Shown: positions 30,211 through 46,881 of the stretch, piece after piece
How positions within the stretch are numbered: the first letter of the stretch is position 1
Layout of the letters: every line of letters starts with the position of its first letter
DNA from: Pseudodesulfovibrio sp. 5S69
GTDB lineage: Bacteria; Desulfobacterota; Desulfovibrionia; Desulfovibrionales; Desulfovibrionaceae
DNA: 64,000 bases
Assembly (NCBI RefSeq): GCF_037094465.1
Contig: NZ_CP146609.1
Location: 3,467,501 to 3,531,500 of the forward strand
Direction of reading: 5' to 3'
The notes under the pieces: generated by a model
What the model was told of the DNA's origin: nothing
Databases searched by the model: none
What the model saw: only the letters and a program-made list of their open reading frames with translations
Made by a program: the position numbers and the translations under genes

Positions 30211-30496
30211 CTCGCTTGGCCTTCAGAGAAAGCTTGGAGCCACTTATGGTCGTCAGGATCCCGGCCGCGGAGTTCTTGCCCAATGCCTTTCCGACAAATC
30301 TTCTTCCCTTGTAGTGACTAGCATGGACATTCATCCCATTGACCTCGCCCAAGAAGTGATAGAGGTCTTTTGATCCCATGAATCCAAAAACTTCAGCGTA
30401 GCCTGACACTTTCCGACCTTTCTGCTCGACATGGATAACAATATCCGCAATGAGATATCGAGTCTGCCAAATGCCGGTAAAATCGAAATTTTTCAT
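30185..30496 (-). CDS. Small hypothetical protein
   Basis: 103 residues starting MKNFDFTGIWQTRY, with GGAGG seven bases before the ATG. The text alternates hydrophobic and polar residues (DIVIHVEQKGRKVSGYAEVFG), suggesting a small antiparallel beta-barrel of lipocalin-like type, without signal peptide. No family recognised. It is convergent with, and overlaps, the glycosyltransferase gene. Confidence 0.6.
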   Translation of the reverse strand: MKNFDFTGIWQTRYLIADIVIHVEQKGRKVSGYAEVFGFMGSKDLYHFLGEVNGMNVHASHYKGRRFVGKALGKNSAAGILTTISGSKLSLKAKRVSMNPQVI

Positions 30497-30676
30497 TGTT
30501 ACCTCCGCCTGCTACCGTTTATGCTGTTCCGGGCAAGTAAAGAATCACAACTTGCCAAGGGGGTAATATACGGAATAATGTCTATCAACGGTCAATACCA
30601 TATTGTTATACTGAGGATACTAAAAAATCCGCCAACAACAATCAAGCCACGTACAACCAACACACAAGCCGACCAG

Positions 30677-31903
30677 ATGAGCAACACGCCCGATCCCCAG
30701 ACACGACCTTTCAACTCCAAGCACCCAAAAAGGCGCCAATGGACTGAACAGAGGCCGACCAAGCCTGAAACCGGTTTTGCCCCGGGCCTGAAAGCGTATT
30801 ACGTTTGCTCCATAACTCTGATTGTTTTTCTGTTGCTCCCGGCCATCGGCCATTGCGCTGCAACCATCACCGACATGAACCAGACCTTCATAACGACCAG
30901 CGACGACAGCCGTATGCTGATCGTCACGTGTACTGTCCAAACGGACAAGGCGACAGAAAGTCCGGCGCTCCAAGTCAAGGTGTTTGACGACACAGGGAAA
31001 ACACTTTCGAAGCATACAAGCTATGGTGGAAGATATTACGACAAGGCGGTCCTCTCCCAGCTGAGCCTCCTTGCCGCTACCGCTGCCGTTTGCTCCCCAA
31101 TCCCCAAACCGGTCAAGCCGAACACCAAGAGGATTTATCAAATCCTCTTGCCCTATCCGAGGGAGTATACAATAAAGCTGGATGTCTCATTACTCACCGA
31201 GGCCAAACCAACTCCTGCCCCTCCTCTTGCTCCACCCGCACCCAATGCAGGATCGGGCTCAATACATACCGACGGACTTTACCTGCAAAAAGCCTTTGCC
31301 CCGTTCACTGTGGATGAAAGTGTCGACACGCTCTTCCGAGAGTATCCTGAAGACGTTCTTGCCACCTCCCAGCCGCAGACTTACGAACCAGAGGAGCGCC
31401 ACTCGCCTGCACCTGTACCGCAGCCTGGAACAGGCAGTCGCTTTGAAGAAGCAGATAATCTACTGGAAGGATATGGCATTGTCCCTTATTGGGAGCTGGT
31501 AGCCTTTGGCTGGAGCATTGAGAAAACCAATAAAGAACTTGCGAAACATGCGCTTACTTCGTATAAAAACAATTCTTTAGTCGTCACCGCTTGCACGGAA
31601 AATATTTGCGACTACAGACTGAAAGATAAGTTGAAAAATTCCAAATCAATAGGATTCCTGTTTCTGAATAAAAAGCTCCATGCCATGACTGTCGACATTT
31701 CCACTCGGGACATGGTTAGGCGCAGAAGCCTGCTGCAAGCGTTAGCAACTTTATATGGCGGCACTATTTGGAGCCGAACTCGTGGTCCTGAAATGGGCAA
31801 TGATGTCAGCCGACTTGAATATATGGCCGAGACTTCCGGTTTTACGATGAAAACCGCAGGCAACAAATTGCGCATCATTTCAACCGGCACAAATAAAAAT
31901 TAA
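30677..31903 (+). CDS. Hypothetical exported or membrane-anchored protein
   Basis: 408 residues from ATG 30677; an in-frame ATG at 30578 is also possible and neither has a strong ribosome site. Residues about 38-60 form a hydrophobic segment ending LPAIGHCAA, a type II anchor or late signal peptide. A Pro/Ala-rich linker (PTPAPPLAPPAPNAG) separates an N-terminal beta-rich domain from a C-terminal domain with LLEGYGIVPYWEL. It ends 25 bases upstream of the giant synthase gene and is probably co-transcribed with it. Function unknown. Confidence 0.6.
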   Translation: MSNTPDPQTRPFNSKHPKRRQWTEQRPTKPETGFAPGLKAYYVCSITLIVFLLLPAIGHCAATITDMNQTFITTSDDSRMLIVTCTVQTDKATESPALQVKVFDDTGKTLSKHTSYGGRYYDKAVLSQLSLLAATAAVCSPIPKPVKPNTKRIYQILLPYPREYTIKLDVSLLTEAKPTPAPPLAPPAPNAGSGSIHTDGLYLQKAFAPFTVDESVDTLFREYPEDVLATSQPQTYEPEERHSPAPVPQPGTGSRFEEADNLLEGYGIVPYWELVAFGWSIEKTNKELAKHALTSYKNNSLVVTACTENICDYRLKDKLKNSKSIGFLFLNKKLHAMTVDISTRDMVRRRSLLQALATLYGGTIWSRTRGPEMGNDVSRLEYMAETSGFTMKTAGNKLRIISTGTNKN

Positions 31904-31928: not shown

Positions 31929-34900
31929 ATGACCTCCCTGCTATATCTTACGAACATTCCACAGGCATCCACAGAGGCCCCCATCAGCGACTCTGCGTTT
32001 ATTCTGGACCAATCTTTCCTTGCCCCCGCTGCGGTTCAAGCATCGCGCCTTCATGAAGCGACCGAGGTATACCTCCGTTCAACGCAACTTTTGGCTCCGG
32101 AATTCGAAAGTGCGGCAAAGGCCTTGGAGGGCTCCCGCGTATGGGTTGAAATTCTGCCGTCCGAATTGCTGGATGTTCAAGAGACTCTTTCGAGCCTGCA
32201 AAAATTTTCCGCAATGGCCATCGTCCCGGTTACCGGGAACCATGCGTTTGCCAAGACATGGCTTGAGGCCAATCCGGAGGGATCTATCGCTTTGAAGGGA
32301 GTGGAGTCTTCCGGCCTAGTCAGTGCAGACTCCATCCAGGTCCTGTATTCCGCCGTGGGAAAAGAGGCCGGAGGCGCTTCCATCTATGTCTGGGGAGGGC
32401 TGGGCACCTCCGAAGCAGCTGCGGCATTCATCGGCTCGGGCGCAGCCGGTGTTGTTTTCGAAAGCGTACATTGGCTGAACAGCGTCATGGGCCTGACCGA
32501 CGTTGGAAAAGACAAAATTCGAAAACTCCGCTATGATTCGACCACCGTTGTCGGCACTTCCACTGGTATGCCCTGGCGTTTTTTCGACAAGGGCAATTCC
32601 AAAGCCGTCCGCCAATTGACCAAAACAGTCGATTGCCTGGGCGACAAAAAACCGGAAGAGGCTGGCAGGCAATTGGCCCTTGAGGTCATGGGCCAAGCCG
32701 TGGAGCCTCTGTCCAGCGATTTTTCCGCCGCAGAACTCATACCGCTCGGGCCCGAGGCCGCCTTTGCCAGCAGCTTTGAAAAAAAGTACGGCTCGTCCAT
32801 GTCCGCCTTTACGAAATTTGCAGCGGATATCCGTAGCCTGCTTGAAAGCTCTCCCCAAAGATTGAAACGCTTTGACGCAAGCCCGGCGGCAGCGTCGCTT
32901 GGCGTCAATTATCCAATCATCCAGGGCGGGATGACCTGGATCACCGACAATTTCGCATTTGCTCGCGAAGTGGAACGCGCCGGGGCACTGCCGACCATCA
33001 CCTTGGGGATGCGCAACACCAGGAATCTGGAGCAGGATTTCGGAGCAATCCATGAAGAGATGGGAGACCGCCCATATGCGATCAACGCCCTCCTGCTGGA
33101 CGAAAACCCATTTCGTGACGAGCAGCTTGCCTGGATTGAAAAGATCAGACCGCCCTTCGTCACGATAGCCGCCGGAGATCCGGCATTCGTCAAACAGTTC
33201 GCCAAGCTCGATATCCGCGTCATCTACCTTGCCGCAACTGTCGACCTGCTGAAACTCGCCGTAAAGGCGGGCGCTGACTTCGTGGTTCTCGAGGGCAACG
33301 AAGCCGGGGGCCATGTCGGCGAAAATTCGACGCTCTCCCTCGCCCAAGCCGCTTCGGTCCTTCGCCAGGAAATGCCTGACTTTTTCGCCAAGACTAAAAT
33401 TATCATAGCCGGTGGCATTTACGACAGAAAGACGGCCTATCGCGCCGCAATGCTCGGAGCCGACGGCGTGCAGATGGGCACGGCCTACCTCGCCACTCGC
33501 GAAATTATTGAAACCGGAGCCCTGCGCCAACAATACCAAAAGCTCATTGTGGAAGCCAAACCGGGTGGCACCGTCTTGTCTGGGGAGAGTATCGGTCTTC
33601 GGGTGCGTTCTCTCAAGACTCCAAAACTCAATGACATCTGCACCATGGAACGCGATCTCGTCGCCAAGTCCGTGGAAGAGTCCGAACGCCGCATGGCACT
33701 CGAAAAGGTGAGTGTAGGCACCCTGTTCGTTGCCGCCAGAGGGATCAATCGGGAGGATGGCACCCCCTTGAGTGACGAGTACTGCCTGCGTGAAGGCCAA
33801 TTCATGAGCGGCGCCGTTTCTGGCAATATTTCAAGCTCCATGACCCTTGATGATCTGCATTCGAAAGTGGCGTCAGGCCCCATGCTGATACATGGCCTCC
33901 CGAAAAGCGAAATGGCGACTGCCACAGGGGCTGGCTCAGGGCACGAACGCATCGCGATAACCGGCATGGCTGCGGTCAATTCCCTGGGCAACAACTATCA
34001 GGATATTTTCGAGGCTTCCGTCAACCTCAAAAGTGGTGTCAGCACGATTCCCGCCAAACGCTGGGACCACTCCAAGCACATGAAGCCCGGTGCCCGGATG
34101 CCCAACGTGTATACCAATGTCGGCGCATTCATTGACATCGAAATTACCCGCAAGGACATCAATGTCTCCCCGCAGGATTTCCGGACCATGGCCGAATCCA
34201 CTCGCCTGACGCTCCTTCTGGCGAAACAGGCCCTGGAAGAATCCGGCCTGTTGAACTCGGACATTGAGAAATCGAGAATCGCTGTCATCACGTCGCAAAA
34301 CTCCGCTGAAACGGCGAGCACTTTCAAGGACCAGCTCATCCACGTATATGCCGAGGAAATCGTCGACAACCTGGCCAAGTCGATTCCCATGACGGCCGAA
34401 CAGCGGACGGCAGCCATCAACGACATGCGGGACATTGGAACGAGGCCGGATGACACGACACTCATAGGACGCCTCAACTGTACCGCCGCTGGCTACATTT
34501 GCAACCAATACGCACTCAATGGCCCAAGCTATTCTGTCGGAGCCGCCTGTGCATCAAGCCTCATTGCACTGCACTGCGCTTTGATGCTGCTCCGCCAGGG
34601 CATCATTGATGCGGCCGTCATCGGTGGAGGCGAAGAAATACTCACCCCCGGCCACTATTATGAATTTTGCGCCATAGGCTCTCTGGCAGGTATGTCGGGT
34701 GTCAAACGGACACCAGCGGAATGTAGCCGCCCCTTTGACAAAAACAGGGACGGCTTCGTTCTCGGCGAAGGCGGCTCCATGGTGGTCATAGAACGGGAGT
34801 CCGTAGCCCGGGCCAGAGGGGCCAAAAGCCACGCCTACATCACGGGTATAGGTGCCTGTACCAACCATGAAGGCATTGTCGAATCCATATCAGCCTCCCA

Positions 34901-37900
34901 GCAGATCGCCCTGAACGCTTCATTCGCAGATGTCCCGTATGGACCGGATGAAGTTGACCTGATCGAGTGTCACGGCACCAGCACCAATCAGGGAGACCGG
35001 GAGGAGATACGTGCTCTGGCCGCCGTCTTCCCCCAAAACGGCAAAACGGTTCTTTCTTCGTTCAAGTCTCAAATCGGTCACACCCTGGGCGCCTCAGGCA
35101 TCACCAGTCTCATTCGAGGCGTCAACGCCATGAAGCACGGCGTACTTCCCGCCAGCTTAAACCATGACACACCAGACCCTGAAATCGGCATTAAAAACAC
35201 GGGGCTCAGAATATTGTCCAAGCCCGAGCCATGGCCCTCTCCCGAGGGGCGCCCCCGCCGCTTACAGGTCAACGCATTCGGTTTCGGCGGTGCGAGTCTT
35301 GTTGTCCATCTGGAAGGCACTGAGGCTGACAGGGATCGTGTCTGGAGCGGTGAGGGGTGGGAGCCTGTCCAAAAGGCCGCGGCACCGAAAGGCGGACTCG
35401 TGGCCTATCCGATCAGGGGTGCTTTCGGATCAGCGCGTGTTGCTACCGCGCAAGCCTCCCGGACTGAGGTGGAATCCCTGCTCGCCGGACTGAAGGGCAA
35501 GGATGCAATTTCAAATAGATTTTTGAGAAAGCTGGCGAGCAACGACGTCTTCGTCGGACAGGAAACGTCCGGTAAGGGCCTGGCCTGGGTGTTCTCCGGC
35601 CAGGGGGGCTGGTACATCGGTATGGGCAAGGAGCTGTATTCCACAGTTCCCGGCGTCCGGGAGACCCTGGATTTCCTGAACGGGCATGCCGACTTCGATC
35701 TTCTTGACCTTATGTTCGAGGCTGCCCCGGAGAAATTGCAGAAGACCAGATGGCAGCAGCCCGCGCTGTTCGCCTTGGAATACGCCATAGCCAAACACCT
35801 GGTGGATTCCGGTATGCGCCCGGATGCGGTAGCAGGCCACAGCCTCGGCGAATTCACCGCCCTGTGCGTTGCCGGCGTGCTTTCTGCCGAAGACGCATTC
35901 ACCCTCGTATGCAATCGCGGCCGCATCATGGACGAGGCAGCTGAGGCAGCCGACGATCCCGGCGGCATGGTGGCCACCAATACCCCACTGGACATCCTCA
36001 CCAGAAAACTGAAGCGTTTCCCGAACGCAATCATCACCAACTACAATTCACCCGGCCAGACCGTACTCGGAGGCCCTGCCGACCTGCTTGACGATCTGGT
36101 GATCGAGCTCAAAGATCAGGGCTTCCTTGCAATACGGCTCAAAGTCAGCATGGCTTTTCACTCCAGCATCATGGCCGGTGTCCGTGACGCATTCCGGTCC
36201 GTGCTCAACAACGTCACTTTCAATGCACCGGCTATTCCCGTGGCCTCCAACGTGACCGGCGAAATCCATGAGAACTCACCGGAGGCCATCAAGAACACCA
36301 TGGTCGAACACCTGGAGAGTCCTGTTCTCTGGACGCAGAACACCTACACACTCTGGGAAGGGCTACAAATCCGTTCCTTCCTCGAAATAGGCCCCTCGGA
36401 CACGTTGTGCACATTTATCGGAGACATCCTGCCCAAGGCGGAATGCCGGGCCACCTGCAGGGAAGCCCACGAACGGAACCAACTTCTGAACAGCTCGGCA
36501 TGGCTGTGTGCCAAAGGCTACGGGAACATCACGGACGGACCGGTCATTGACCTCAACGAAACAGCAAGCCCGGCCCCCATCGCCAAGCCGGCAGCCAAGG
36601 CCTCGGCAAGCGGCGGTTCCATCCTCGAACAGGTCATTCAGATCATCATGGACTCCACAGGCTATGAGCGCGATGAGATCGAACCGTCCATGAATATCCG
36701 CCAGGACCTCAATATTCGTTCCAGCCGACTGCCGGTGATCATGGACGAGGCGGAACATATCTTTGATATTGAAATTCGCATTGAAGATTTCATCGGAGTT
36801 GAAACAATCAACGATCTGGCTACCCGCATTGCGGAAATCAAAGGTGTCGACATCAACGCCGATACCGCGCCTGCGGCTGCGAGCACGAGCGGCAAAAAGG
36901 ACGTCCTTGAACAGGTCATTCAGATCATCATGGACTCCACAGGCTATGAGCGCGACGAGATCGAACCGTCCATGAATATCCGCCAGGACCTCAACATCCG
37001 TTCCAGCCGACTGCCGGTGATCATGGACGAGGCGGAAAAGACCTTTGATATTGAAATTTGCATTGAAGATTTCATCGGAGTTGAAACAATCAACGACCTG
37101 GCTACCCGCATCGCGGAAATCAAAGGTGTCGACATCAACGCCGATGCCGCGCCTGCAGCTGCGAGCACGAGCGGCAAAAAGGACGTCCTCGAACAGGTCA
37201 TTCAGATCATCATGGACTCCACCGGTTATGAGCGCGACGAGATCGAACCGTCCATGAATATCCGCCAGGACCTCAACATCCGTTCCAGCCGACTGCCGGT
37301 GATCATGGACGAGGCGGAAAAGACCTTTGATATTGAAATTTGCATTGAAGATTTCATCGGAGTTGAAACAATCAACGACCTGGCCAGCAAAATCTCGGAG
37401 CTCAAGGGTGGAGCACCTGTCACAGCAAAAACGTCGGCAAAAAGCGGAGCTGCCGATCCAGCAAAAACGGCAGCCGAGCCCGAGGCCGCCAAAGCCCCAT
37501 TGCCGGTTCTGCGTTATGATTTTGCCGAAAGTGTTGCCGACGCCCCTGCCGGTCCGCCCGCCTATACAGTAGGCGGAAACGCGATTGTCGTAGCAACCCT
37601 TGGAGGGTCCAGCCTGTCCGACGCGACACTGGCATGGGTTGCCGACAAGCTGCAAAGCGACGTCGTCACGGCGGACCTGACTGAAGAAATTCCAGTTAAA
37701 ACCCTTGCCAAGTGTCAGGGACTCATCCTGCTCCTTGACGAGGCGGAAAACCGAGACAGCACCCAAACCATAGAAATTCTGTCGCAAATATTCCCTGCCA
37801 TGAAAGCCTTTGCCGCCAACAGAACAAAGCAGTTCTGCATCGCCATGGGCAAAGCTCCGAAAGGCGTTGCCCTTAGCGAGGTCGGCGAAGGCGTACTCGG

Positions 37901-39773
37901 CATCCTCCTTGCCGCGGCCATGGAATACACATCCACGGTCTTCCGTTACGCTGCCGTTGAGCATGGAATCGGTATTGCCGACGTCCTTGATCGCTGCGTG
38001 TCCAGCAAAGAGCGAACTGTGGACCTCGTTTTCAGGAATCAGGGCGTCATGACCCGGACAGCGCAGCCCGTCGCCTTCAAGACTGGAGAGCAAAAAAACA
38101 GAATCAAGCCCGACGATGTGGTGGTCATTACCGGCGGAGGCAAGGGAGTTACGGCTGCCGTGGCTGAATCCGTGGCCGCTCTGGACGTGAAGCTGGCGCT
38201 GCTTGGCAGAAGTCCTGAAACAGCGCCAGACACGGCATCGACCATCAGCAATCTGAAAGGACTCGGTTGCCAGGTAATGTACCATTCCTGCGACATCGCC
38301 GACGCCAAAGCCGTGGAAAAGGCCGTCAACTCCATCGCCGCCGAATATGGTCGAGTGGACGCGGTCATACACGGAGCGGGCCTTCTCAAAGACAGCTTCC
38401 TGCAACTCATGGAACCTGAAGATTTCAAGCTTGTCCTCAATGTCAAATTGCAGGGAATGAGGAACGTGGTCGAAGCCGCATCCAGGCACGGTCTGGAGTT
38501 CGCGGCCGCCTTCTCTTCCGTGGCAGCTTGGCATGGCAACGTCGGACAGGCGAACTATTGCGCGGCCAACCGGGCCATGGCCGCCTACCTGAATTCCCTT
38601 ACCGACCGAGGCATCGCCGGGAAGGCACTCTGGCTGCCGCCCGTGGACGGCATCGGCATGGCCAATGACCCCGAAGTCAAAAAGCTTCTGGCCATGAAGA
38701 GCATGGGACAAGCCTATGTTCCCATCGCCTCCCTGTCAAAGCTCATCCGCCTTGAAATCGCCACGGAAACGTCCGGATGGACCATGCTCTCCCGCCCGGT
38801 CAAGGACCCGGCCAGCGGCAAGCGTTTCCCCGCCGGACCTGAACAAGATGCATTAGGCCTTGCCGTTGGCGATCTGCCCATGATCGATACAGTCTCCGAA
38901 CTGATTCTCGAAATACCCGAGATCCGAATCAAGCGGGCCGTTTCCCACGCACGGGACCCCTGGCTGCCGAACCACAAGCCGTATCCGATGCTGAAATACC
39001 CACTCTTCTCGGCTGTCATGGCTGTGGAAAGTTTCCTGGAAACCGCCAAGGCGCTCTATCCAGAGTTCACTCCGACCGGCGTCAGGAACGTTCGCTTTTT
39101 GGATATGATCCCTTGCGCTGAAGCAACGACACGCGAACTGAGCGTCGTTGCCCGTGGAAGCAGCACCAGCATCGGCAAAACTCTGGTCTCGACCTCGCTT
39201 GCCTGCCGCGACATGTCACCCAAAGGCCGACAGCTGGATCGCTGGAACGACTGCTATACCGCAGAGGTCGCCATGGCGGCGGCCTCAACGCCAAAGCTCA
39301 AGAATCCGATCATGGAAGGGACTGCCCCCCTGCCATCCGCATCGCTTTCTCCTTCCGAAATCACTGATGTATATGCGAAATACACGGCCCAACTCAATAG
39401 GTATCAGGTTATCAAAGAGATCACCGGTGCCGACGAGCACGGGGTCACAGGCGTCAGCATCTATGGTGAGGAAAAAGACTTTTCCGCAAAACGCGCGTCA
39501 TATCAGTATTCGCCCTATCTGCTGGAAGCCTTGATGCAGTTAGTCCTGTTCCAGCCCCTGGCAATAGGTGGGGAACTCTCTCCCTTCCTCCCGGTGGGTA
39601 TAGGCGAAATGCAGTTTTCCCGGCGGTGCGAACCAGGAGAGACCGTGATGCTTAAGGCGCGACTGCGCAAATCCGTTGAAGGCGGCTCCTCTTGGGACGG
39701 CGTGGCCCTGGACGATGAGGGCAATGTGCTCATGATCGTTGAAGGCCTCTTCATGAAACGCATACCGAACTAG
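31929..39773 (+). CDS. Iterative Pfa-like lipid/polyketide synthase (NPD-KS-AT-ACP3-KR-DH)
   Basis: 2,614 residues, one chain. Order: 1-320 degenerate NPD-like half-barrel; ~320-620 nitronate-monooxygenase/PfaD-like flavin domain (EGNEAGGH, His462; AGGIYD; GADGVQMGT); KS ~673-1130 with Cys874 (GAACASS), His1015 (HGTST), His1051 (KSQIGHT); AT ~1217-1500 with Ser1305 (GHSLGE) and His1411 in AFHS, the malonyl-type pattern; three ACPs at ~1565, 1660 and 1754, serine in NIRSS; KR ~2058-2300 (TGGGKG, Ser2197, Tyr2210, Asn2214); C-terminal double-hotdog DH-like region with His2349 and Glu2533. This equals PfaA's order with PfaD's reductase fused in front; no CLF, no FabA-type DH. Probable product: a reduced long acyl chain. 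The PPTase follows 11 bases on. Confidence 0.85.
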   Translation: MTSLLYLTNIPQASTEAPISDSAFILDQSFLAPAAVQASRLHEATEVYLRSTQLLAPEFESAAKALEGSRVWVEILPSELLDVQETLSSLQKFSAMAIVPVTGNHAFAKTWLEANPEGSIALKGVESSGLVSADSIQVLYSAVGKEAGGASIYVWGGLGTSEAAAAFIGSGAAGVVFESVHWLNSVMGLTDVGKDKIRKLRYDSTTVVGTSTGMPWRFFDKGNSKAVRQLTKTVDCLGDKKPEEAGRQLALEVMGQAVEPLSSDFSAAELIPLGPEAAFASSFEKKYGSSMSAFTKFAADIRSLLESSPQRLKRFDASPAAASLGVNYPIIQGGMTWITDNFAFAREVERAGALPTITLGMRNTRNLEQDFGAIHEEMGDRPYAINALLLDENPFRDEQLAWIEKIRPPFVTIAAGDPAFVKQFAKLDIRVIYLAATVDLLKLAVKAGADFVVLEGNEAGGHVGENSTLSLAQAASVLRQEMPDFFAKTKIIIAGGIYDRKTAYRAAMLGADGVQMGTAYLATREIIETGALRQQYQKLIVEAKPGGTVLSGESIGLRVRSLKTPKLNDICTMERDLVAKSVEESERRMALEKVSVGTLFVAARGINREDGTPLSDEYCLREGQFMSGAVSGNISSSMTLDDLHSKVASGPMLIHGLPKSEMATATGAGSGHERIAITGMAAVNSLGNNYQDIFEASVNLKSGVSTIPAKRWDHSKHMKPGARMPNVYTNVGAFIDIEITRKDINVSPQDFRTMAESTRLTLLLAKQALEESGLLNSDIEKSRIAVITSQNSAETASTFKDQLIHVYAEEIVDNLAKSIPMTAEQRTAAINDMRDIGTRPDDTTLIGRLNCTAAGYICNQYALNGPSYSVGAACASSLIALHCALMLLRQGIIDAAVIGGGEEILTPGHYYEFCAIGSLAGMSGVKRTPAECSRPFDKNRDGFVLGEGGSMVVIERESVARARGAKSHAYITGIGACTNHEGIVESISASQQIALNASFADVPYGPDEVDLIECHGTSTNQGDREEIRALAAVFPQNGKTVLSSFKSQIGHTLGASGITSLIRGVNAMKHGVLPASLNHDTPDPEIGIKNTGLRILSKPEPWPSPEGRPRRLQVNAFGFGGASLVVHLEGTEADRDRVWSGEGWEPVQKAAAPKGGLVAYPIRGAFGSARVATAQASRTEVESLLAGLKGKDAISNRFLRKLASNDVFVGQETSGKGLAWVFSGQGGWYIGMGKELYSTVPGVRETLDFLNGHADFDLLDLMFEAAPEKLQKTRWQQPALFALEYAIAKHLVDSGMRPDAVAGHSLGEFTALCVAGVLSAEDAFTLVCNRGRIMDEAAEAADDPGGMVATNTPLDILTRKLKRFPNAIITNYNSPGQTVLGGPADLLDDLVIELKDQGFLAIRLKVSMAFHSSIMAGVRDAFRSVLNNVTFNAPAIPVASNVTGEIHENSPEAIKNTMVEHLESPVLWTQNTYTLWEGLQIRSFLEIGPSDTLCTFIGDILPKAECRATCREAHERNQLLNSSAWLCAKGYGNITDGPVIDLNETASPAPIAKPAAKASASGGSILEQVIQIIMDSTGYERDEIEPSMNIRQDLNIRSSRLPVIMDEAEHIFDIEIRIEDFIGVETINDLATRIAEIKGVDINADTAPAAASTSGKKDVLEQVIQIIMDSTGYERDEIEPSMNIRQDLNIRSSRLPVIMDEAEKTFDIEICIEDFIGVETINDLATRIAEIKGVDINADAAPAAASTSGKKDVLEQVIQIIMDSTGYERDEIEPSMNIRQDLNIRSSRLPVIMDEAEKTFDIEICIEDFIGVETINDLASKISELKGGAPVTAKTSAKSGAADPAKTAAEPEAAKAPLPVLRYDFAESVADAPAGPPAYTVGGNAIVVATLGGSSLSDATLAWVADKLQSDVVTADLTEEIPVKTLAKCQGLILLLDEAENRDSTQTIEILSQIFPAMKAFAANRTKQFCIAMGKAPKGVALSEVGEGVLGILLAAAMEYTSTVFRYAAVEHGIGIADVLDRCVSSKERTVDLVFRNQGVMTRTAQPVAFKTGEQKNRIKPDDVVVITGGGKGVTAAVAESVAALDVKLALLGRSPETAPDTASTISNLKGLGCQVMYHSCDIADAKAVEKAVNSIAAEYGRVDAVIHGAGLLKDSFLQLMEPEDFKLVLNVKLQGMRNVVEAASRHGLEFAAAFSSVAAWHGNVGQANYCAANRAMAAYLNSLTDRGIAGKALWLPPVDGIGMANDPEVKKLLAMKSMGQAYVPIASLSKLIRLEIATETSGWTMLSRPVKDPASGKRFPAGPEQDALGLAVGDLPMIDTVSELILEIPEIRIKRAVSHARDPWLPNHKPYPMLKYPLFSAVMAVESFLETAKALYPEFTPTGVRNVRFLDMIPCAEATTRELSVVARGSSTSIGKTLVSTSLACRDMSPKGRQLDRWNDCYTAEVAMAAASTPKLKNPIMEGTAPLPSASLSPSEITDVYAKYTAQLNRYQVIKEITGADEHGVTGVSIYGEEKDFSAKRASYQYSPYLLEALMQLVLFQPLAIGGELSPFLPVGIGEMQFSRRCEPGETVMLKARLRKSVEGGSSWDGVALDDEGNVLMIVEGLFMKRIPN
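36618..37406 (+). repeat. Three tandem ACP-coding repeats, 282 bp each
   Basis: Leu codons opening each copy lie at 36624, 36906 and 37188, an exact 282-base (94-residue) period. Copies 2 and 3 are almost identical in DNA; copy 1 differs in a few codons (HIF and EIRI instead of KTF and EICI). The linker between copies (DINADxAPAAASTSGKK) is repeated too. Each copy has DLNIRSSRLPVI at the phosphopantetheine site. Confidence 0.92.
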
Positions 39774-39784
39774 GCGCCTTTCGC

Positions 39785-40339
39785 ATGATTCTCTTCTGCA
39801 ATGGTATGAGAATCGCCGTTCATCAAGCTTCAGTCGGCACTGATCGACATGCGCTTATTGAAGCCTCCTGCCACGATTTGACATTTGATGCGCAAGGCTT
39901 CTCGCTCGTGCGAGGGAAGCTGGGCGCACCGAAATTAATCGGGAAAACACCTCCACCAGCCATCTCGTTCACCACTTCCGGTGAAACGCTGTGGTGCGCC
40001 GTATCCTTGAGCCGGGGGCTCGGCATCGACGTGGCCTGCCCTGAAGAATTCATGCAGCCATATCCGGTACCACGTGTCTTTGATCCAACCGAAATAAAAC
40101 TCACCGAAACGTTTGTCCACGATCCGTTGTCGCGCCTTGCCCTGCTGTGGAGTCTCAAGGAAGCAGTGGCCAAGGCCTTGGGGACGGGGTTTAATACCGT
40201 CGACCCCGGAGAGTTGACGGCAACCGCTCTGTATGAGAAAGACGACAAGCTCAGCGGGACTATAGCGACGCCCAAGGGGGAACTCCCGATTGTAGCGGTA
40301 CCGGTGAACAATTGCTGGCTGGCCCTTGCACAACAATAA
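39785..40339 (+). CDS. 4'-phosphopantetheinyl transferase
   Basis: 184 residues, the short Sfp/PfaE-like type. It loads the phosphopantetheine arm onto the ACP serines. The magnesium site is GIDVACPEEF, and the second motif WSLKEAVAKALGTGF matches the W-x-x-KEA-x-x-K pattern. It starts 11 bases after the synthase stop, so its partner is almost certainly the three ACP domains encoded just upstream. A second ATG at 39806 is possible. Confidence 0.9.
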   Translation: MILFCNGMRIAVHQASVGTDRHALIEASCHDLTFDAQGFSLVRGKLGAPKLIGKTPPPAISFTTSGETLWCAVSLSRGLGIDVACPEEFMQPYPVPRVFDPTEIKLTETFVHDPLSRLALLWSLKEAVAKALGTGFNTVDPGELTATALYEKDDKLSGTIATPKGELPIVAVPVNNCWLALAQQ

Positions 40340-40356: not shown

Positions 40357-41478
40357 ATGTCTAAATTCAAAATAATTCCAGTCCGTTCTTCCGGGGAGAT
40401 AAAGCAGTTTGTCGATCTGCCCTGGACAATATACAAAGACTCCCCCAACTGGGTGCCACCGATCAAGAAAAACGTTATGCAGCTGTTGACTCCGGGCAAA
40501 CACCCCTTCTGGGAATTCGCCAACCGCGAACTCTTTCTTCTTAAACAGGGTCGGAAGGTTATTGGTCGGATCGCCGCCATCGTTGATGACAATTACAACA
40601 AGTATCACCATGAGAAAGCCGGGGGCTGGGGCTTTTTCGAATGTATTGACGATCAGGAAGCTGCCAACATGCTTTTTGACGCAGCCGAGGTATGGCTTCG
40701 TGAGGCGGGCATGGAATACATGCACGGGCCGTTCAATCCATCCACCAACTATGAGGTCGCCATGCTCATCAAGGGCGGGCAAGTTCCGCCGGTGCTCATG
40801 ATGACCTACAACCCAGATTATTATCCGGCGTTGGTGGAAGCCTCGGGCCAAACCAAGGAAAAGGACCTTTTCGCTTTCAAGTTCAACCGGGGCCACCAGT
40901 TGCCCGAGTGGGTGACCAAGATTGCAAACCGGTTGGTGGACAAGGGAGAAGTCACCATACGCCATCTGGACATGAAAAAACTGAATGAGGAAGTGGTCCT
41001 CATGAATACGCTGTACCGGGCTGCTTGGGCAGACAACTGGGCCTTTGTCCCGGCCACGGATGCTGAAATCGCCATCCAGGCCCATGAACTCAAAGACATC
41101 ATCGAGCCCCGTCTGGCCTTTTTCCTCTACCATGGCGATGAACCCATTGGCGTCGGCGTCATCCTCCCGGACGCCAACCCGCTCCTCAAGGAATTCAACG
41201 GAAAGCTCGGCGTCACCGCCCTCTACAAACTGCTGCGCCACAAATCCAAAATCATCGGCACGCGCTGTATCATTTTCGGCGTCAAGCCCAAGTACCACCA
41301 GACAGGCGTGCCGCTTGTCGCCCTGGATTACATCATGAAGATGAGCGAGGAATTCCCCCAATACAAACACATCGAAATGAGCTGGACCCTGGAGGACAAC
41401 GCAGGTATCAACGACTTGCTGGAGGATTTTGGGGGCGACCTCTACAAAAAATATCGTATTTATCGCAAGGATTTCTAG
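40357..41478 (+). CDS. GNAT-fold acyltransferase-like protein (YghO-like)
   Basis: 373 residues from ATG 40357 (MSKFKIIPVRSS), with GAAGAG nine bases upstream; a start at 40312 would overlap the PPTase. Family text: YKDSPNWVPPIKKNV, HPFWEFANRELFLL, MHGPFNPSTNYEVAMLI. These proteins resemble E. coli YghO and have a GNAT-type fold of unproven function. Placed right after a PPTase and an acyl synthase it could take the finished acyl chain from ACP, but that is inference. Confidence 0.7.
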   Translation: MSKFKIIPVRSSGEIKQFVDLPWTIYKDSPNWVPPIKKNVMQLLTPGKHPFWEFANRELFLLKQGRKVIGRIAAIVDDNYNKYHHEKAGGWGFFECIDDQEAANMLFDAAEVWLREAGMEYMHGPFNPSTNYEVAMLIKGGQVPPVLMMTYNPDYYPALVEASGQTKEKDLFAFKFNRGHQLPEWVTKIANRLVDKGEVTIRHLDMKKLNEEVVLMNTLYRAAWADNWAFVPATDAEIAIQAHELKDIIEPRLAFFLYHGDEPIGVGVILPDANPLLKEFNGKLGVTALYKLLRHKSKIIGTRCIIFGVKPKYHQTGVPLVALDYIMKMSEEFPQYKHIEMSWTLEDNAGINDLLEDFGGDLYKKYRIYRKDF

Positions 41479-41487
41479 GACATCACC

Positions 41488-42477
41488 ATGCGCGTTTTGG
41501 TTACGGGTGCAGCAGGCTTCGTCGGTAGCCATTTGGCAGAGGCGCTTGCAGCCGACGGCCATGACGTAACCTGCCTGCTTCGCCCAAACAGCAATCCACG
41601 TTGGCTGGCCAACTCATCGTTGTCCTTTGTCGATTGCGGCATGGATTCACCAAAGGCCATGGCCGGGCCCGTCGGCAACAGCGACATGATCTTTCATGTG
41701 GCCGGTGTAACCAAGGCCAGCACCCCGCAAGGCTATTTTAACGGCAATGTCAACATCACCCGCAATCTCGTGAAAGCCGTCAAGACTCACGGTCATCGGG
41801 TCAAGGCGGTAATCGGCGTTTCAAGCCAAGCGGCAGCAGGCCCGCATCCAGGGCCGGAGGGGCTGGACGAGATCGCAACGCCCGCCCCTGTTTCCTACTA
41901 TGGGAAAGCGAAACTGCAATCAGAACAAGCACTCATGGAGCTCGCCGACTTGACTGCGGTGGGCATCGTCAGGCCATCCATGGTCTATGGCCCAAGGGAC
42001 TATGCTTTTCTCCCTCTATATTCAGGGGCCAGACTCGGTCTTTTCCCTGTCCCCGGTAGCCGCAAGACACTCATGAGCATCATTCACGTCAACGATCTGG
42101 TCCGGGGCATCGTTTCCCTGGGGAACAGCCTGCTGGACGGGGATGTCGATTCGGGCAATGTCTATTTCCTCTCTGGCCAGACCGCATCCTGGTCGGGAAT
42201 CGGCAAGGCTATCGGAGACGTCGTCGGGCGCGGGCAGATGCTATTCCCCATCCCGCTTTTCGCCATCGGCGCGGTAGCCATGGTCAATGGCGTGCTGGCC
42301 CGTCTCGGATTGCCGACCAACCATCTGCTGCCGGACAAATGGCGGGAAGCCAAACAGTCGGGATGGGTATGCACCCATGGCCGCGCCAATGCGGATTTCG
42401 GGTATTCCCCCCAAATCAGCCTTGAAGAAGGGATGCGCGGTACCATCCAATGGTGCCGGGAAAACGGCTTGTTGTAA
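41488..42477 (+). CDS. NAD-dependent epimerase/dehydratase (extended SDR)
   Basis: 329 residues. The Rossmann motif VTGAAGFVGSHLAEAL opens the protein; the catalytic YxxxK is SYYGKAK, with Ser in GVSSQAA. The type is close to 3-beta-HSD-like and dihydroflavonol-reductase-like SDRs, so both sugar and lipid substrates are possible. It is the last gene of the synthase operon, nine bases after the GNAT gene, and ends 13 bases before a convergent asparagine-synthase gene. Confidence 0.85.
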   Translation: MRVLVTGAAGFVGSHLAEALAADGHDVTCLLRPNSNPRWLANSSLSFVDCGMDSPKAMAGPVGNSDMIFHVAGVTKASTPQGYFNGNVNITRNLVKAVKTHGHRVKAVIGVSSQAAAGPHPGPEGLDEIATPAPVSYYGKAKLQSEQALMELADLTAVGIVRPSMVYGPRDYAFLPLYSGARLGLFPVPGSRKTLMSIIHVNDLVRGIVSLGNSLLDGDVDSGNVYFLSGQTASWSGIGKAIGDVVGRGQMLFPIPLFAIGAVAMVNGVLARLGLPTNHLLPDKWREAKQSGWVCTHGRANADFGYSPQISLEEGMRGTIQWCRENGLL

Positions 42478-42490
42478 GACGACAGCCCCT

Positions 42491-44371
42491 CTACACGGTG
42501 TACCCGTTTGCCTCCAGCCAAAGTTGCAGAACAAGAAAGGTCCACAACTCCTCACGCCTGTCCACCACATTGTTTTCATGCTCAAAGATTAGTGACTTGA
42601 CTGCTTCCGGACGGAACAACCCCTGTCGTTTCAAGAATCCGGCATCGGTGAATCGCTCCAATTGGGGTTTCAGACTACTGCCGAGCCAACCGGCTACGGG
42701 CATGAGAAATCCCCGCTTGTTGCGTTTTTGGATGCTCGACGGCATGAATTCGGAGAGCGCCTGCTTCATGAGGTGCTTTCGCTTTCCTCCTGGGACCTTG
42801 AAGCGGCCTGGCAGACTGAAAACAAACTCCACCAAAGCCGTATCCAAAAACGGCGACCGCACCTCCAGCCCGTGCATCATTGAGCAGCGGTCGACTTTCG
42901 TCAGTATATAATCGAGCAGATAGGTCCGTGCGTAGTAGTTGAACACCGCGTCCAGTGGATCTCTATCCTCAAACCCCTTCCAGCTCTCGGCCGGATGGCC
43001 GAACAGCAGCTCGGGAGACTCACTCGGGGCTGATACCCACAGCGCTTTCTGGGCTTCCGGGGAAAAGGCCATGAGCATACGGGGCACCCTGTGCGGTGCA
43101 GGAGCCTTGACCGCCTCGGCGAACCGGCCCACAGCATGCCCCGGACTGATGTAATGAGGAGAAACAGGCAGCATGCGACGCAGTCCTTCAAAAATCAAAT
43201 GCATAGGCGCGCCGAGAGCGGCACAGCGTTGCGCCCACAAGAAGGCCGGAAAATGCTCGTATCCGCCGAACAATTCATCGGCCCCATCACCGGACAAAGC
43301 CACAGTGACATGTTGTTTGACAAACCGGGATAGGAAATAGGTCGGGATAATCGACGGGTCTGCCAGAGGTTCGTCGAATCTGCCCACAACTTCACTCACC
43401 AGCCCCGCGCACATCTCGCTGGTAAGGTTCGCATTGCGATGGTCCGTTCCTGCGAATCGAGCAGCCTGGGCAGCATACGCGGATTCATCATAGGCCTTCG
43501 CCTCAAAGCCTATGGAAAAGGTTTTGACCTGCGTATTTCCTAACCGCGACATGAGGCTGACAATGACCGTCGAATCAAGGCCACCGCTGAGGAAAGCGCC
43601 CAAGGGGACATCACTTATCAGACGACGCCCGACAGCCTCCTCCAATAACGACCTGATACGTTCAGCCACTTCGCCGGTGGCCACGCCGCTGACCGGAGAC
43701 GGCAGTGACCAATAGCGGGCAACAGTGATCTCTCCATCCCCGAACCGCAGACAATGTCCCGGCTGAAGTTTCCTCGCTTCCGTATAAATGGAACCGGGAG
43801 TCGGGACGTATTTGCAGGTCAGAAACTGGGCCATGGCCTGCATATCCAGATTAAAAGATATGTCAGGCACATGGGCGAGTGAAGACAACTCCGAAGCAAA
43901 GGCGAATATGCCGTTCTGGCAAGTGTAGTAGAATGGTTTTTTCCCCATTCTGTCCCGCGCGGCGAACAGTGATTCTTTTTTGGTATCCCATATGGCAAAG
44001 GCAAACATGCCCTCAAGGAATGACAAGCACGATTCGCCATACTCCATATAGGCCTGCAACAGGACTTCGGTGTCCGAGGTCGTGCGGAATCGACGCCCTT
44101 TGGTCTCCAGAGAGACTCGCACTTCCTGAAAATTGTATATCTCGCCGTTGAAGACAATGACAAACCGGCCGCAATCGCTCATCATGGGCTGCCCCCCCGA
44201 GCTGAGATCGATAACCTCTAGGCGGCGGTGCGATAACGCGGCAGGCCTTTCGACCCACACCCCACTGGAATCCGGTCCGCGATGGCGCACGCCATCTGCC
44301 ATGCTAACGGCGCACTGCCGGAGCGCATCCGACGTCATTCGGGCATGGACAACCCCGGCGATGCCGCACAT
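42491..44371 (-). CDS. Asparagine synthase (glutamine-hydrolysing) family amidotransferase
   Basis: 626 residues. The glutaminase domain starts with the nucleophile Cys2 (MCGIAGVV); the synthetase domain has the ATP PP-loop SGGLDST. In O-antigen loci such proteins often amidate uronic acids (WbpS type) instead of making free asparagine. It ends an eight-gene leftward operon that also encodes WecB and WecC, makers of N-acetylmannosaminuronate, a fitting substrate. The ATG overlaps the stop of the GT4 gene upstream. Confidence 0.9.
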   Translation of the reverse strand: MCGIAGVVHARMTSDALRQCAVSMADGVRHRGPDSSGVWVERPAALSHRRLEVIDLSSGGQPMMSDCGRFVIVFNGEIYNFQEVRVSLETKGRRFRTTSDTEVLLQAYMEYGESCLSFLEGMFAFAIWDTKKESLFAARDRMGKKPFYYTCQNGIFAFASELSSLAHVPDISFNLDMQAMAQFLTCKYVPTPGSIYTEARKLQPGHCLRFGDGEITVARYWSLPSPVSGVATGEVAERIRSLLEEAVGRRLISDVPLGAFLSGGLDSTVIVSLMSRLGNTQVKTFSIGFEAKAYDESAYAAQAARFAGTDHRNANLTSEMCAGLVSEVVGRFDEPLADPSIIPTYFLSRFVKQHVTVALSGDGADELFGGYEHFPAFLWAQRCAALGAPMHLIFEGLRRMLPVSPHYISPGHAVGRFAEAVKAPAPHRVPRMLMAFSPEAQKALWVSAPSESPELLFGHPAESWKGFEDRDPLDAVFNYYARTYLLDYILTKVDRCSMMHGLEVRSPFLDTALVEFVFSLPGRFKVPGGKRKHLMKQALSEFMPSSIQKRNKRGFLMPVAGWLGSSLKPQLERFTDAGFLKRQGLFRPEAVKSLIFEHENNVVDRREELWTFLVLQLWLEANGYTV

Positions 44372-45597
44372 CAGTCAGCACCTCGCGCATGCGCCGAGAA
44401 CAGTTCGATCAAGGTGGAACAGTTTTTTTCCTGATCAAATAAATCCATGACATGGCTCTTCCCCGCATCGGCAAGAGATTGGGCCCCTTCAGGGGCCCGA
44501 GCCAGCCGGATAATGGCATCGGCCAGAATCTCAGGACTCCTCTGCGGGACAAGATACCCCGTCCTATCGTTAATCACGACCTCGCTGATCCCGGCCACGT
44601 CCGTAGCGATTACAGGAAGGCCATGGGCATACGCCTCCATGATGACATTGGGGATGCCGTCCCTGTCTCCATTGGTGTCCACCACACTGGGCATAACCAA
44701 TGCATCGCTGGCCAGCATGAGACGGGACAACGCATCATGACTGAGAAATCCCTTGAAATCGACAAAATCTGTCAGCCCTAGATCGACAGCCTGTCGGGTC
44801 AACTTGCTGCGGAGCATGCCGTCTCCAGCGAATGTCAATAAAAAGTCGACACCCTGCTCTTTAACAATGGAACAGGCGTCAAGCAGATTGTCAAACCCCT
44901 TAGTCCTAACCAGACGCCCCGCAGCCAGCAGCCTGAGTTTTCCGTTGTCCGAGGGAAGCCGTTCACCCTCAGGTGCCAATGAAAGCGCATTATAGACCAG
45001 CGTGATCTTGTCTTCATGGCCCTCGGCAACGGACTGCAGATACGAGACATTGGCTCCGTGATTGACCCGAACAAAGGAGGCATCCTTTATCTTGCCGCAC
45101 AGCGAACCTTCGGGCGGGTAGATGTCGCCGGCCCTTCCGGCAAAGGAGAAAGGGATGCCCGTGAGTCGCGAAGCAACCCAAGCGGCCGTGGCCGGTCCTC
45201 CGGCCCATGGAGCATGGATATGCTGGATGCCCTCTTCCCGAAACCGCCTGACCAGATGCAATCCGCAGCAGAAGGCCCAGAGGTTTTCACCCAATCCTTC
45301 CAGGGAACGCCATTTGTTGAAAGGCCCTGCCTTGAGCATCGAGAACGTCTGTACAGGGGCTGACACAAGATGCTTAATCAAGGTGCCGAACAGCATGGGA
45401 GTCTTGATGGAGCCAAGGGACTCCGAAGGAGGAAACGCCTGCATTTCCGGGGAAAGGTTCTTAGTTAGGCCAGCATATAGGGTGAACACTTGTAGTGGCA
45501 ACCCCATATCCCGCATCTTTTTGACTTCACGGAAAATGAATGTTTCAGACGGCTTGGGAAACCAAAGTGAAATATATGCGGTGCGGGGAGGGTTCAT
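44371..45597 (-). CDS. Glycosyltransferase family 4 (WcaL/AmsK-like)
   Basis: 408 residues. The start SLWFPKPSETFIFREVKKM is characteristic of the colanic-acid WcaL-like group. QHIHAPWAGGPA and the donor site (MPSVVDTNGDRDGIPNVIMEAYAHG) follow. It overlaps both neighbours by a few bases. Confidence 0.9.
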   Translation of the reverse strand: MNPPRTAYISLWFPKPSETFIFREVKKMRDMGLPLQVFTLYAGLTKNLSPEMQAFPPSESLGSIKTPMLFGTLIKHLVSAPVQTFSMLKAGPFNKWRSLEGLGENLWAFCCGLHLVRRFREEGIQHIHAPWAGGPATAAWVASRLTGIPFSFAGRAGDIYPPEGSLCGKIKDASFVRVNHGANVSYLQSVAEGHEDKITLVYNALSLAPEGERLPSDNGKLRLLAAGRLVRTKGFDNLLDACSIVKEQGVDFLLTFAGDGMLRSKLTRQAVDLGLTDFVDFKGFLSHDALSRLMLASDALVMPSVVDTNGDRDGIPNVIMEAYAHGLPVIATDVAGISEVVINDRTGYLVPQRSPEILADAIIRLARAPEGAQSLADAGKSHVMDLFDQEKNCSTLIELFSAHARGAD

Positions 45598-46811
45598 AGA
45601 TCGGAGGTCTCAGTGGGGCGGATAATTTCTATGACATCGCCGCCCAATTTGGTGCGGTATCTGATACTGTGCCAAGAAATGATGTTGGTTGTCCATGTGC
45701 GCATATACCCGACAGCAGCACCAATATGAAGCATTGCATAGGCTGCCAACTGTATTGGCAGCGGGGCGCTGTTCGGTATAATCTTGGTGTAGAGGATGCC
45801 GGTAAAGGCAAGCCCCGCGAGATAGACCACGGACACAAGCCATGAAGGCCCGGTACCGATCCCGAGCATTAGCCCGGCAAGACCGACAACAACATATGCG
45901 AGGATCAAAAAAAAGATTACGGGGACGGCTGTGAAGGCTATCCATGTGAGGGGCATGCAAAACTTGAGGTATTGCAACTGGCGAAAAAACCACTCCTCCC
46001 AACCTTTGATACTCTGCCCCGAAAGATAGGTGACGAGACAGGCCTCGGCCACCGGCAATGACCTGATACCATTGCCTTGAAGATATGGCCCCATGGTGAA
46101 ATCATCGACCACGGTTCGCTCCCACAACTCAAAAATGTTGTAGCCGAAAAAGGTGTTACGGCTAATGGCAGTCGCCCCGCCCCATGGCTGCGTGATGGGA
46201 CGTATGGCCTGAAGCATGTGGATGGATTGCACAGACAGCATCTGGCAGAGGGTTCCAAGATGACTGTCCCCGGGCTGGACGAAACGATAGCCGGACGTCA
46301 TCAGAGCCTCCCCCCGCGCTATCGGCGCTGTCAGGCGGGCCAGGAAATCCGGTTTCGCCACGTGGGTGCTGTCGCAAAACACGAGTATCGATTCATCAAC
46401 GGTGACTGAAGCCACCCCAGCCAGCAGGTTGTAATTCTTCTGACAACAGCGCGTCGCGGGCCCTGCCACGATATGCTGCGCATGGCTGTATTCCCGGCAC
46501 AGAGCTTGGACCAATGGAACGGCCGACTCGTCCTTTGTGGCTGTCACCAGCATGACGCGGTAGTGGCCGTACTCCTGCTCGAGCAGCGACCGAAGGCTCG
46601 GTTCGACTCCAGGGGCGGCATTGCCCACCGGCACCATCATGGCGATATGGGGCGTATCCGCAGGACGCTCAAATGGTGTGTCACGCCGAACAGCCTTACG
46701 CATGAAAGAAGCGGTAACGAACATGAACAGCAACGCCCCAAGCACATGCAACGCCATGGCGGTTTCAATAAAAACACTCCATAAAGCAACGCCCTGTATC
46801 AGTTCAACCAT
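45594..46811 (-). CDS. Glycosyltransferase family 2, ceramide-glucosyltransferase-like (GT21)
   Basis: 405 residues from ATG 46811 (MVELIQGVALW); a GTG at 46838 is the alternative. One N-terminal membrane segment precedes a GT-A domain; acidic pairs are in ILVFCDSTHV and TVVDDFTMG, and the acceptor-side motif near GWEEWFFRQLQYLKF is in the place of the GT21 (Q/R)xxRW box. Three further membrane segments follow. GT21 enzymes glycosylate lipids such as ceramide or hopanoid precursors. A lipid acceptor is attractive next to an acyl synthase. Confidence 0.75.
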   Translation of the reverse strand: MVELIQGVALWSVFIETAMALHVLGALLFMFVTASFMRKAVRRDTPFERPADTPHIAMMVPVGNAAPGVEPSLRSLLEQEYGHYRVMLVTATKDESAVPLVQALCREYSHAQHIVAGPATRCCQKNYNLLAGVASVTVDESILVFCDSTHVAKPDFLARLTAPIARGEALMTSGYRFVQPGDSHLGTLCQMLSVQSIHMLQAIRPITQPWGGATAISRNTFFGYNIFELWERTVVDDFTMGPYLQGNGIRSLPVAEACLVTYLSGQSIKGWEEWFFRQLQYLKFCMPLTWIAFTAVPVIFFLILAYVVVGLAGLMLGIGTGPSWLVSVVYLAGLAFTGILYTKIIPNSAPLPIQLAAYAMLHIGAAVGYMRTWTTNIISWHSIRYRTKLGGDVIEIIRPTETSDL

Positions 46812-46881
46812 TGGATCCCATTGATGTGGAGAGTGCACTCTCCCGTGTTTATATCAACAGCCGGACATCTTGAACTATCCA

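Follow-up and report, generated by a model that had tools for sequence, protein, structure and literature searches.

The synthase operon and its surroundings

The window, by which we mean the whole stretch of 64,000 nucleotides analysed here, comes from a sulfate-reducing bacterium and encodes on its forward strand a 2,614-aa multidomain synthase with an ATG start and zero internal stops. It is followed by genes for a phosphopantetheinyl transferase (PPTase), a GNAT-type acyltransferase and a short-chain dehydrogenase/reductase (SDR), and the gaps of 11, 17 and 9 bp between these four genes suggest a single operon. The features discussed below are listed with their window coordinates; the last lies outside the window, in the same genome (G000).

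30431..31903, + strand: gene 25 bp upstream of the synthase, no Pfam match; G168 has a homologue (54%) in the same place
31929..39773, + strand: single-chain synthase, 2,614 aa (degenerate barrel, FabK-type ER, KS, AT, three ACPs, KR, DH)
31929..32888, + strand: N-terminal ~320 aa of the synthase, a putative degenerate barrel (weak PfaD-barrel likeness)
32898..33638, + strand: FMN enoyl-ACP reductase (ER) domain, FabK type, His462 (Pfam NMO 99.5 bits; TIGR03151 166 bits; PDB profile matches)
33945..35165, + strand: ketosynthase (KS), C874/H1015/H1051 (Pfam, residues, KS tree)
35586..36398, + strand: acyltransferase (AT), FabD-like, S1305/H1411 (domain models, residues)
36622..36903, + strand: ACP repeat 1, Ser motif DLNIRSSRLP (direct repeat)
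36904..37185, + strand: ACP repeat 2, DNA 96% identical to repeat 1
37186..37467, + strand: ACP repeat 3, DNA 78% identical to repeat 1
38121..38645, + strand: ketoreductase (KR) domain, Y2210 (Pfam KR, residue)
38889..39770, + strand: C-terminal dehydratase-type (DH) domain, H2349/E2533 (Pfam PS-DH 40.1 bits; alignment; AlphaFold2)
39785..40339, + strand: 4'-phosphopantetheinyl transferase, 184 aa (PF01648 35.1 bits, cut-off 25)
40357..41478, + strand: GNAT acyltransferase of the YghO/bCerS (bacterial ceramide synthase) family, 373 aa (YghO homology, tree)
41488..42477, + strand: extended SDR, CerR (ceramide reductase)-like, 329 aa (PF01370; epi homology)
42491..44371, - strand: AsnB-type amidotransferase, a possible tailoring gene (kept beside the cluster in G168 and G212)
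45594..46838, - strand: glycosyltransferase with GT2 and GT21 matches (PF13506 29.2 bits, cut-off 21.7)
G000:C1:3552133-3553344, ~45 kb from the synthase: Spt-like alpha-oxoamine synthase (AOS), by homology

A sequence-only reading of this DNA had proposed a single-chain synthase with three ACPs, intact catalytic residues in KS, AT and KR, and a PPTase of its own, embedded in a surface-glycan locus, and in all of these respects it was borne out. The frame is intact, with Pfam matches exceeding the curated cut-offs for NMO (residues 324-570), KS (673-1079), AT (1220-1490), PP-binding, KR (2065-2239) and PS-DH (2470-2613); the ER, KS, AT, KR and DH residues listed above are all present, and are invariant across 21 aligned sequences, the window's synthase included; and the ACPs form a 282-nt direct tandem repeat (starts 36622, 36904 and 37186). 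The PF01648 PPTase gene begins 11 bp downstream of the synthase, and 13 of the 20 flanking genes scanned (18324-55091) belong to glycosyltransferase, sugar-nucleotide, hexapeptide or polysaccharide-export families. Promoter and terminator scans at the locus gave hits at chance level only.

The same reading had taken the flavin domain for a PfaD-type reductase, and here it erred. The domain reached only 15 bits against TIGR02814 (PfaD; cut-off 449). It belongs with FabK, enoyl-ACP reductase II, in its family and in its motif EAGGHVG, whose His we take to be the catalytic His of FabK, and differs from FabK in being one domain of a 2,614-aa chain and in scoring 166 bits against TIGR03151, whose FabK equivalog cut-off is 453. 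A PDB profile search returned a putative nitroalkane dioxygenase as its top match, followed by six chains bearing the name enoyl-ACP reductase or FabK. Judged by these scores and motifs, the domain is a FabK-type enoyl reductase, and a PfaD type is excluded. The part of the chain before it may be a degenerate barrel: residues ~142-218 weakly resemble the barrel of PfaD, and the motif there reads ESSGLVS where the ER domain has EAGGHVG, leaving the catalytic His absent.

At the other end of the chain, an AlphaFold2 model of the C-terminal domain (pLDDT 85.1, pTM 0.86) showed strands alternating with long helices in a double-hotdog-like arrangement. The second motif of such dehydratases usually has D; this one has E, and from the alignment we regard DH activity as probable. 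The protein thus brings together in one chain the KS, AT, ACP, KR, DH and ER domains, with catalytic residues, that define a functional type I fatty acid synthase (FAS). Because it has KR, DH and ER together, the synthase probably makes a saturated acyl chain, carried on the ACP, and because a Pfam scan of the synthase found no thioesterase domain, an outside acyltransferase probably releases that chain.

The ACPs are unusual at their serine. Typical ACPs have the motif DSL there; 19 of the 21 aligned synthases have DLxIRSSRLP and one has DLxIRSTRLP, with one to four copies each, while the DLxIRS-type pattern was missing from one. The E. coli sphingolipid ACP reads LESIK at its Ser site. Such an ACP and an adjacent PPTase would suit each other, and the PPTase probably activates the ACPs of the synthase. 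A PPTase was found near the synthase in 38 of 80 loci at 1e-8 (25 of 80 at 1e-15), on contigs that were often cut.

A widespread synthase family and its relation to PfaA

The fusion of a flavin reductase to the synthase is not confined to this locus and is shared by a widespread family. At 1e-10 we found 2,028 homologous proteins, and among the best 120 of these, the window's own included, NMO, KS, AT and KR occurred together in 119, the remaining one being a 1,679-aa fragment; a fusion so widely shared is neither a chance event nor an assembly product. By scanning genome contigs we confirmed 114 relatives and obtained 80 loci; by record title, their hosts were mostly Desulfobacterota or 'Deltaproteobacteria', the others being Nitrospirota, Verrucomicrobiota, Lentisphaerota, Planctomycetota, Acidobacteriota, Aminicenantes and one Thioalkalivibrio MAG. 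Plasmids gave no sign of a mobile relative: 1,313 PLSDB records matched KS-AT, all at <60% identity, and the 40 matches listed were 30-32% identical and mostly annotated as modular-type PKS.

The sequence-only reading had likened the synthase to PfaA. The PfaA model TIGR02813 is in fact the second-best NCBIfam match, at 430.5 bits, far under its curated cut-off of 1010.1; NF045894 gave 550.8 bits against a cut-off of 1740. We placed the KS in a quick tree of 50 rows with a long FabF outgroup branch, using the window's synthase, 24 family members picked from those fetched, 10 PfaA that exceed the curated cut-off, 8 that fall short of it and 6 further PKS from the order; L024 and L002 (too short) and HglE were left out, and L127 contributed only 385 aa. 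The window's synthase and the 24 family members formed one clade (SH-aLRT 100), apart from all PfaA, the 10 curated ones among them, and from the 6 PKS. The order's remaining AT and KS-AT proteins matched no more than parts of the synthase, and six of them fell outside its KS clade. The HMM scores, the KS tree and the type of ER together led us to reject a Pfa/PUFA synthase.

What the earlier reading had said of missing Pfa partners did stand: no PfaB, PfaC, CLF or FabA-type domain was found in the synthase or the neighbours scanned. The genome has just three KS genes, and since the other two are frames of 407 and 437 aa, the size of FabF, it has no CLF or PfaC-type KS. The family shares the KS-AT-tandem ACP-KR core of the Pfa and secondary-lipid synthases classed as types A-T in PMC3098273, among which type R is a pfaA-like gene followed by a PPTase and type J a separate pfaD followed by KS-MAT-ACP3-KR. 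It differs from those types in its N-terminally fused, FabK-type ER, in lacking CLF, PfaB and PfaC, and in having a KS clade of its own; none of the types described in the available part of PMC3098273 has the PfaA core and an ER joined in one protein.

Ceramide-gene homologues: similarity, placement and co-occurrence

Ceramide-type sphingolipids are membrane lipids best known from animals, plants and fungi. The YghO/bCerS-family GNAT and the CerR-like SDR of the operon point to a sphingolipid; the sequence-only reading, which mentioned neither, had suggested a new lipid or glycolipid, and an unrecorded lipid or glycolipid does remain probable. We assume a one-to-one equivalence of aca with bCerS and of epi with CerR in relating these two genes to the E. 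coli BL21 sphingolipid set. The GNAT is homologous over its full length to a documented member, E. coli BL21 YghO (31% over 379 positions, 2e-61), and is the sole YghO/bCerS-family member found in the window genome. No Pfam model matched it, and Pfam GNAT models gave weak matches in 5-7 of 18 aligned family members; the PDB yielded no significant relative, with none up to E 1 and a best E of 0.22 when it was searched as a profile. The SDR aligned with E. coli epi at 27% over 318 positions (4e-36), and a search of the whole window genome with this documented CerR counterpart returned it as the best match (9e-27, the next being 7.8e-9). For the sphingolipid set of E. coli BL21, PMC9386255 gives yghO, beside Caulobacter CC_1154, the name aca (acyl-CoA N-acyltransferase) and ECD_02852 the name epi; the Caulobacter bCerS and CerR are described in PMC11087976.

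The third homologue, the Spt-like AOS, is the only one in the genome (the second genome match was just 8e-4), is 35% identical to E. coli Spt and is the top genome match of that protein. Its top PDB match was an SPT at 317 bits, followed by Kbl-named chains at up to 246 and other SPTs at 219 and below; as Kbl-named chains outscore all SPTs except the best one, we treat it as a candidate Spt. In a tree with long E. coli branches it separated from the Kbl and BioF proteins of that species (96/94). The E. coli AMP ligase had only partial, generic matches in the window genome (best 8e-26).

Downstream of Spt in the window genome lie MacB-, ABC-, OEP- and HlyD-type genes and then a polytopic gene, X559. 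The corresponding order in L183 and L190 is Spt-MacB-ABC-OEP-HlyD-GNAT-X559; two relatives without the synthase, G116 and G049, have the GNAT at this place, between HlyD and X559. This GNAT slot is empty in the window genome, G168, G198 and G191, and there a GNAT adjoins the synthase. G191 carries synthase, GNAT, SDR, Spt, MacB, ABC, OEP, HlyD and X559 in one stretch of ~20 kb; in three members of the host genus the synthase and Spt are 37-60 kb apart. We defined a close Spt as one of at least 340 bits, a cut set at a gap in the score list. Of the 28 genomes that have one but lack the synthase, 22 show a GNAT ~6 kb from Spt (by coordinates, the order being read in two); four of the remaining six had a GNAT elsewhere and two showed none. 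Among the genes scanned in the Spt cluster of the window genome there was no ACP or AMP-ligase gene. At six other loci, Spt is fused to an AMP ligase in a protein of 1,092-1,218 aa, and would there seem to be self-supplied with acyl groups.

A quick GNAT tree with long branches (75 rows, 72 of them different, some genomes entered twice) put the GNATs beside synthases within one group of 67 (support 99), which also includes GNATs of g3, a genus of the host's family, from genomes that lack the synthase. Outside it were E. coli YghO, the GNATs directly beside Spt (L183, L190, L070_5590 and L071_5503) and the L134 GNAT, which lies between Spt and synthase.

Co-occurrence was examined in an order-wide search of 297 genomes in which the two best candidates per genome were scored. 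The synthase occurred in six (the window genome, G168, G198, G212, G191 and G267, the last cut by a contig end), and a close Spt in 5 of these 6 vs. 28 of the 291 others, P = 7e-5, uncorrected for relatedness. In the host genus, the synthase, a Spt scoring 500 bits or more and the GNAT were each restricted to the same three of 33 sampled genomes; three further members had AOS matches of 207-216 bits, which is where other oxoamine synthases score. Among synthase genomes drawn from the 80 loci, a GNAT was present in 35 of the 38 tested, and an AOS at 1e-50, a threshold that also admits Kbl-like enzymes, in 33 of the 35 tested.

Close linkage was counted over all 80 loci, many on short contigs, with GNAT nearby in 43, SDR in 19, Spt in 16 and all three in 11; a separate count under other rules gave GNAT 43, SDR 20 and Spt 10. 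The GNAT lay within 3.5 kb of the synthase in 41 of the 80, and an Spt-type AOS within 10 kb in 16. For the 25 well-flanked loci, those having 8 kb or more on each side, the counts were GNAT 19, SDR 13, Spt 11, any of these 19 and all three 10, vs. none of 10 PfaA control loci with GNAT, SDR or Spt (P = 4e-5, again uncorrected for relatedness); the controls received the same treatment over ~10 kb per side, two being shorter on one side. All three genes were missing nearby in six of the 25 (L075, L096, L098, L102, L111 and L124).

A proposed role in sphingolipid synthesis and its alternatives

The link between the synthase and sphingolipids is well supported. With rather more confidence than doubt, we propose that a dedicated type I FAS supplies an acyl chain and that the adjacent acyltransferase moves it from the ACP to the amine of a sphingoid base, yielding a ceramide-type sphingolipid. 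We infer the chemistry throughout, the length and saturation of the chain included. The Spt-like AOS would make a 3-keto sphingoid base; the synthase would carry out iterative elongation with full reduction, holding the chain on its ACP; the GNAT beside it would take the finished chain, presumably the N-acyl one, from the ACP and N-acylate the base; the CerR-like SDR would next reduce the 3-keto group; the GT21-like transferase may add a sugar; and export of the lipid may fall to the MacB/HlyD/TolC-type system whose genes accompany Spt. The GNAT being the closest partner of the synthase, its transfer of the chain to an amine, followed by SDR reduction, is the simplest reading. A glycosyl step is hinted at by the GT21 match, which we take to be of ceramide glucosyltransferase type and which suggests a glycosphingolipid; homologues of this gene occur near the synthase in L094, L099, L125, L134, G168 and G191.

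We put forward more tentatively, at somewhat short of even confidence, that one-chain FAS, RSS-type ACP, PPTase and bCerS-subfamily GNAT constitute a widespread unnamed module, a ceramide synthase with its own fatty-acid factory, in which a special chain would pass directly from the ACP to a sphingoid amine without need of acyl-CoA or of the cellular type II FAS.

Several observations count against the proposed role. G212, which is 95% complete, has the synthase operon, and no AOS was found in it at 1e-60; no GNAT was found in 3 of the 38 synthase genomes tested; and the identities to the E. coli sphingolipid proteins are just 27-35%. Moreover, GNAT-SDR pairs of the same subfamily occur in the g3 genomes, which have neither this synthase nor a close Spt; in L187 and L189 the gene order is DHODH-GNAT-SDR-ABC. 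Both GNAT types occur in L070, L071, G541 and G558, and in such genomes the chain delivered by the synthase-type GNAT may therefore differ, being a second or an O-linked one.

The synthase might instead make the chain of the sphingoid base, with Spt offloading the ACP-bound chain by serine condensation and the GNAT adding an ordinary acyl group, an arrangement that we regard as unlikely on our analysis though it has a precedent. As proposed in PMC12134224, the PKS SgaA works in this way with SgaB in Pseudomonas fluorescens, and the 16 loci of 80 in which a Spt-type AOS lies no more than 10 kb away would agree with it, as would the Spt cluster lacking an ACP or AMP-ligase among the genes scanned and the partial, generic nature of the AMP-ligase matches. 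The tight neighbour of the synthase is nonetheless the GNAT and not Spt, which stands 37-60 kb off in the three genus members, and at the six fusion loci it is the fused AMP ligase that seems to supply Spt. The PfSgaAB/SgaC system of P. fluorescens MYb115 (PMC12134224) does resemble ours in linking an iterative type I synthase to an AOS and to sphingolipids; there, however, PKS and AOS make the sphingoid base, whereas the synthases described here are usually accompanied closely by a bCerS-family GNAT, and often by a CerR-like SDR and a PPTase, and the AOS, rather than adjoining the synthase, is 45 kb away in the window genome.

Less probable again is that the operon makes a non-sphingolipid N-acyl lipid, GNAT and SDR using some other amine, and that the co-occurrence with Spt in this genus is a coincidence of shared ancestry. 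G212, without a close AOS, and the g3 GNAT-SDR pairs, without a close Spt, would fit this explanation, as would the membership of the synthase-type GNATs in a subfamily distinct from that of the GNATs directly beside Spt; it has to contend with the GNAT, SDR and Spt found together within ~10 kb in 10 of the 25 well-flanked loci, with the single continuous cluster of G191 and with the empty bCerS slot. A Pfa-like secondary-lipid synthase of polyunsaturated or heterocyst-glycolipid type we consider very improbable: the domain order and second-best NCBIfam match of our enzyme recall PfaA, but the TIGR02813 score, the separate KS clade, the FabK rather than PfaD ER, and a second KS/CLF and FabA-type domain missing from the scans all speak against it.

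Under the proposed role, in which the synthase feeds the GNAT, the genome resembles those with the Spt-bCerS-CerR pathway of Caulobacter and E. coli BL21 (PMC9386255, PMC11087976) in having homologues of all three proteins, and differs in that the chain appears to be made by a megasynthase and that the bCerS and CerR homologues sit in its operon, away from Spt. The role would explain why the lone bCerS homologue is so placed. PKS-derived sphingolipids are already known from SgaAB, the first such by its authors' account (PMC12134224). Full-text searches judged by title and abstract start, with most subscription papers and all of bioRxiv outside their scope, found no published account of such a fused FabK-type FAS linked to a bCerS-family enzyme, of the synthase itself or of its link to ceramide genes, and no bacterial PKS-sphingolipid link other than SgaAB (PMC12134224).

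For the Black Sea, sphingolipid production by Desulfobacterota has been inferred from lipid-abundance correlations and Spt genes, according to PMC11334938, and the synthase is a gene-level candidate for the acyl supply of such lipids. It may also serve as a metagenome marker for their producers, and its predicted role hints at the class of product made by a large protein family whose members often appear simply as 'SDR family NAD(P)-dependent oxidoreductase'.

Genes around the serine palmitoyltransferase-like gene

The run that joins Spt (serine palmitoyltransferase-like α-oxoamine synthase, AOS) to MacB, ABC, OEP and HlyD genes ended, in all six genomes compared, with the gene we call X559, and at one locus a PAP2_3-family gene, with matches in seven further loci, was placed between Spt and the GNAT acyltransferase gene.

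L049:14517-16196 (window genome, outside the window), X559, polytopic protein without a Pfam match
L065:6754-7662, PAP2_3-family gene

Near the synthase, six loci (L078, L080, L085, L095, L100 and L127) carried two-part ORFs of 1,092-1,218 aa, the N-terminal half an AMP-ligase and the C-terminal half an Spt-type AOS.

Partial gene sets

At two loci, DHODH, GNAT and CerR-like SDR genes were followed directly by an ABC ATPase present in duplicate, with neither the synthase nor a close Spt.

L187:409-5524 and L189:8508-13842, DHODH-GNAT-SDR-ABC rows
L186:2599-5916, AT-ACP protein (1,105 aa), followed by OEP and HlyD genes

The AT-ACP protein belongs to a 1.4-Mb genome of the window organism's family. 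Similar AT matches were present in many genomes of one genus of that family (g3), in one of which (G021) an AOS lay ~1.2 kb from the match.

Region edge, split gene and ACP motif

Window 18324-19034, rve integrase-type transposase, bordering the glycan region
L127:9740-18179, synthase gene broken across three frames

The three-frame split at L127 reflects either mutation or an assembly error. The ACP serine, usually found in a DSL motif, lies in RSS (RST in one) in 20 of the 21 aligned synthases (window copies at 36622-37467).
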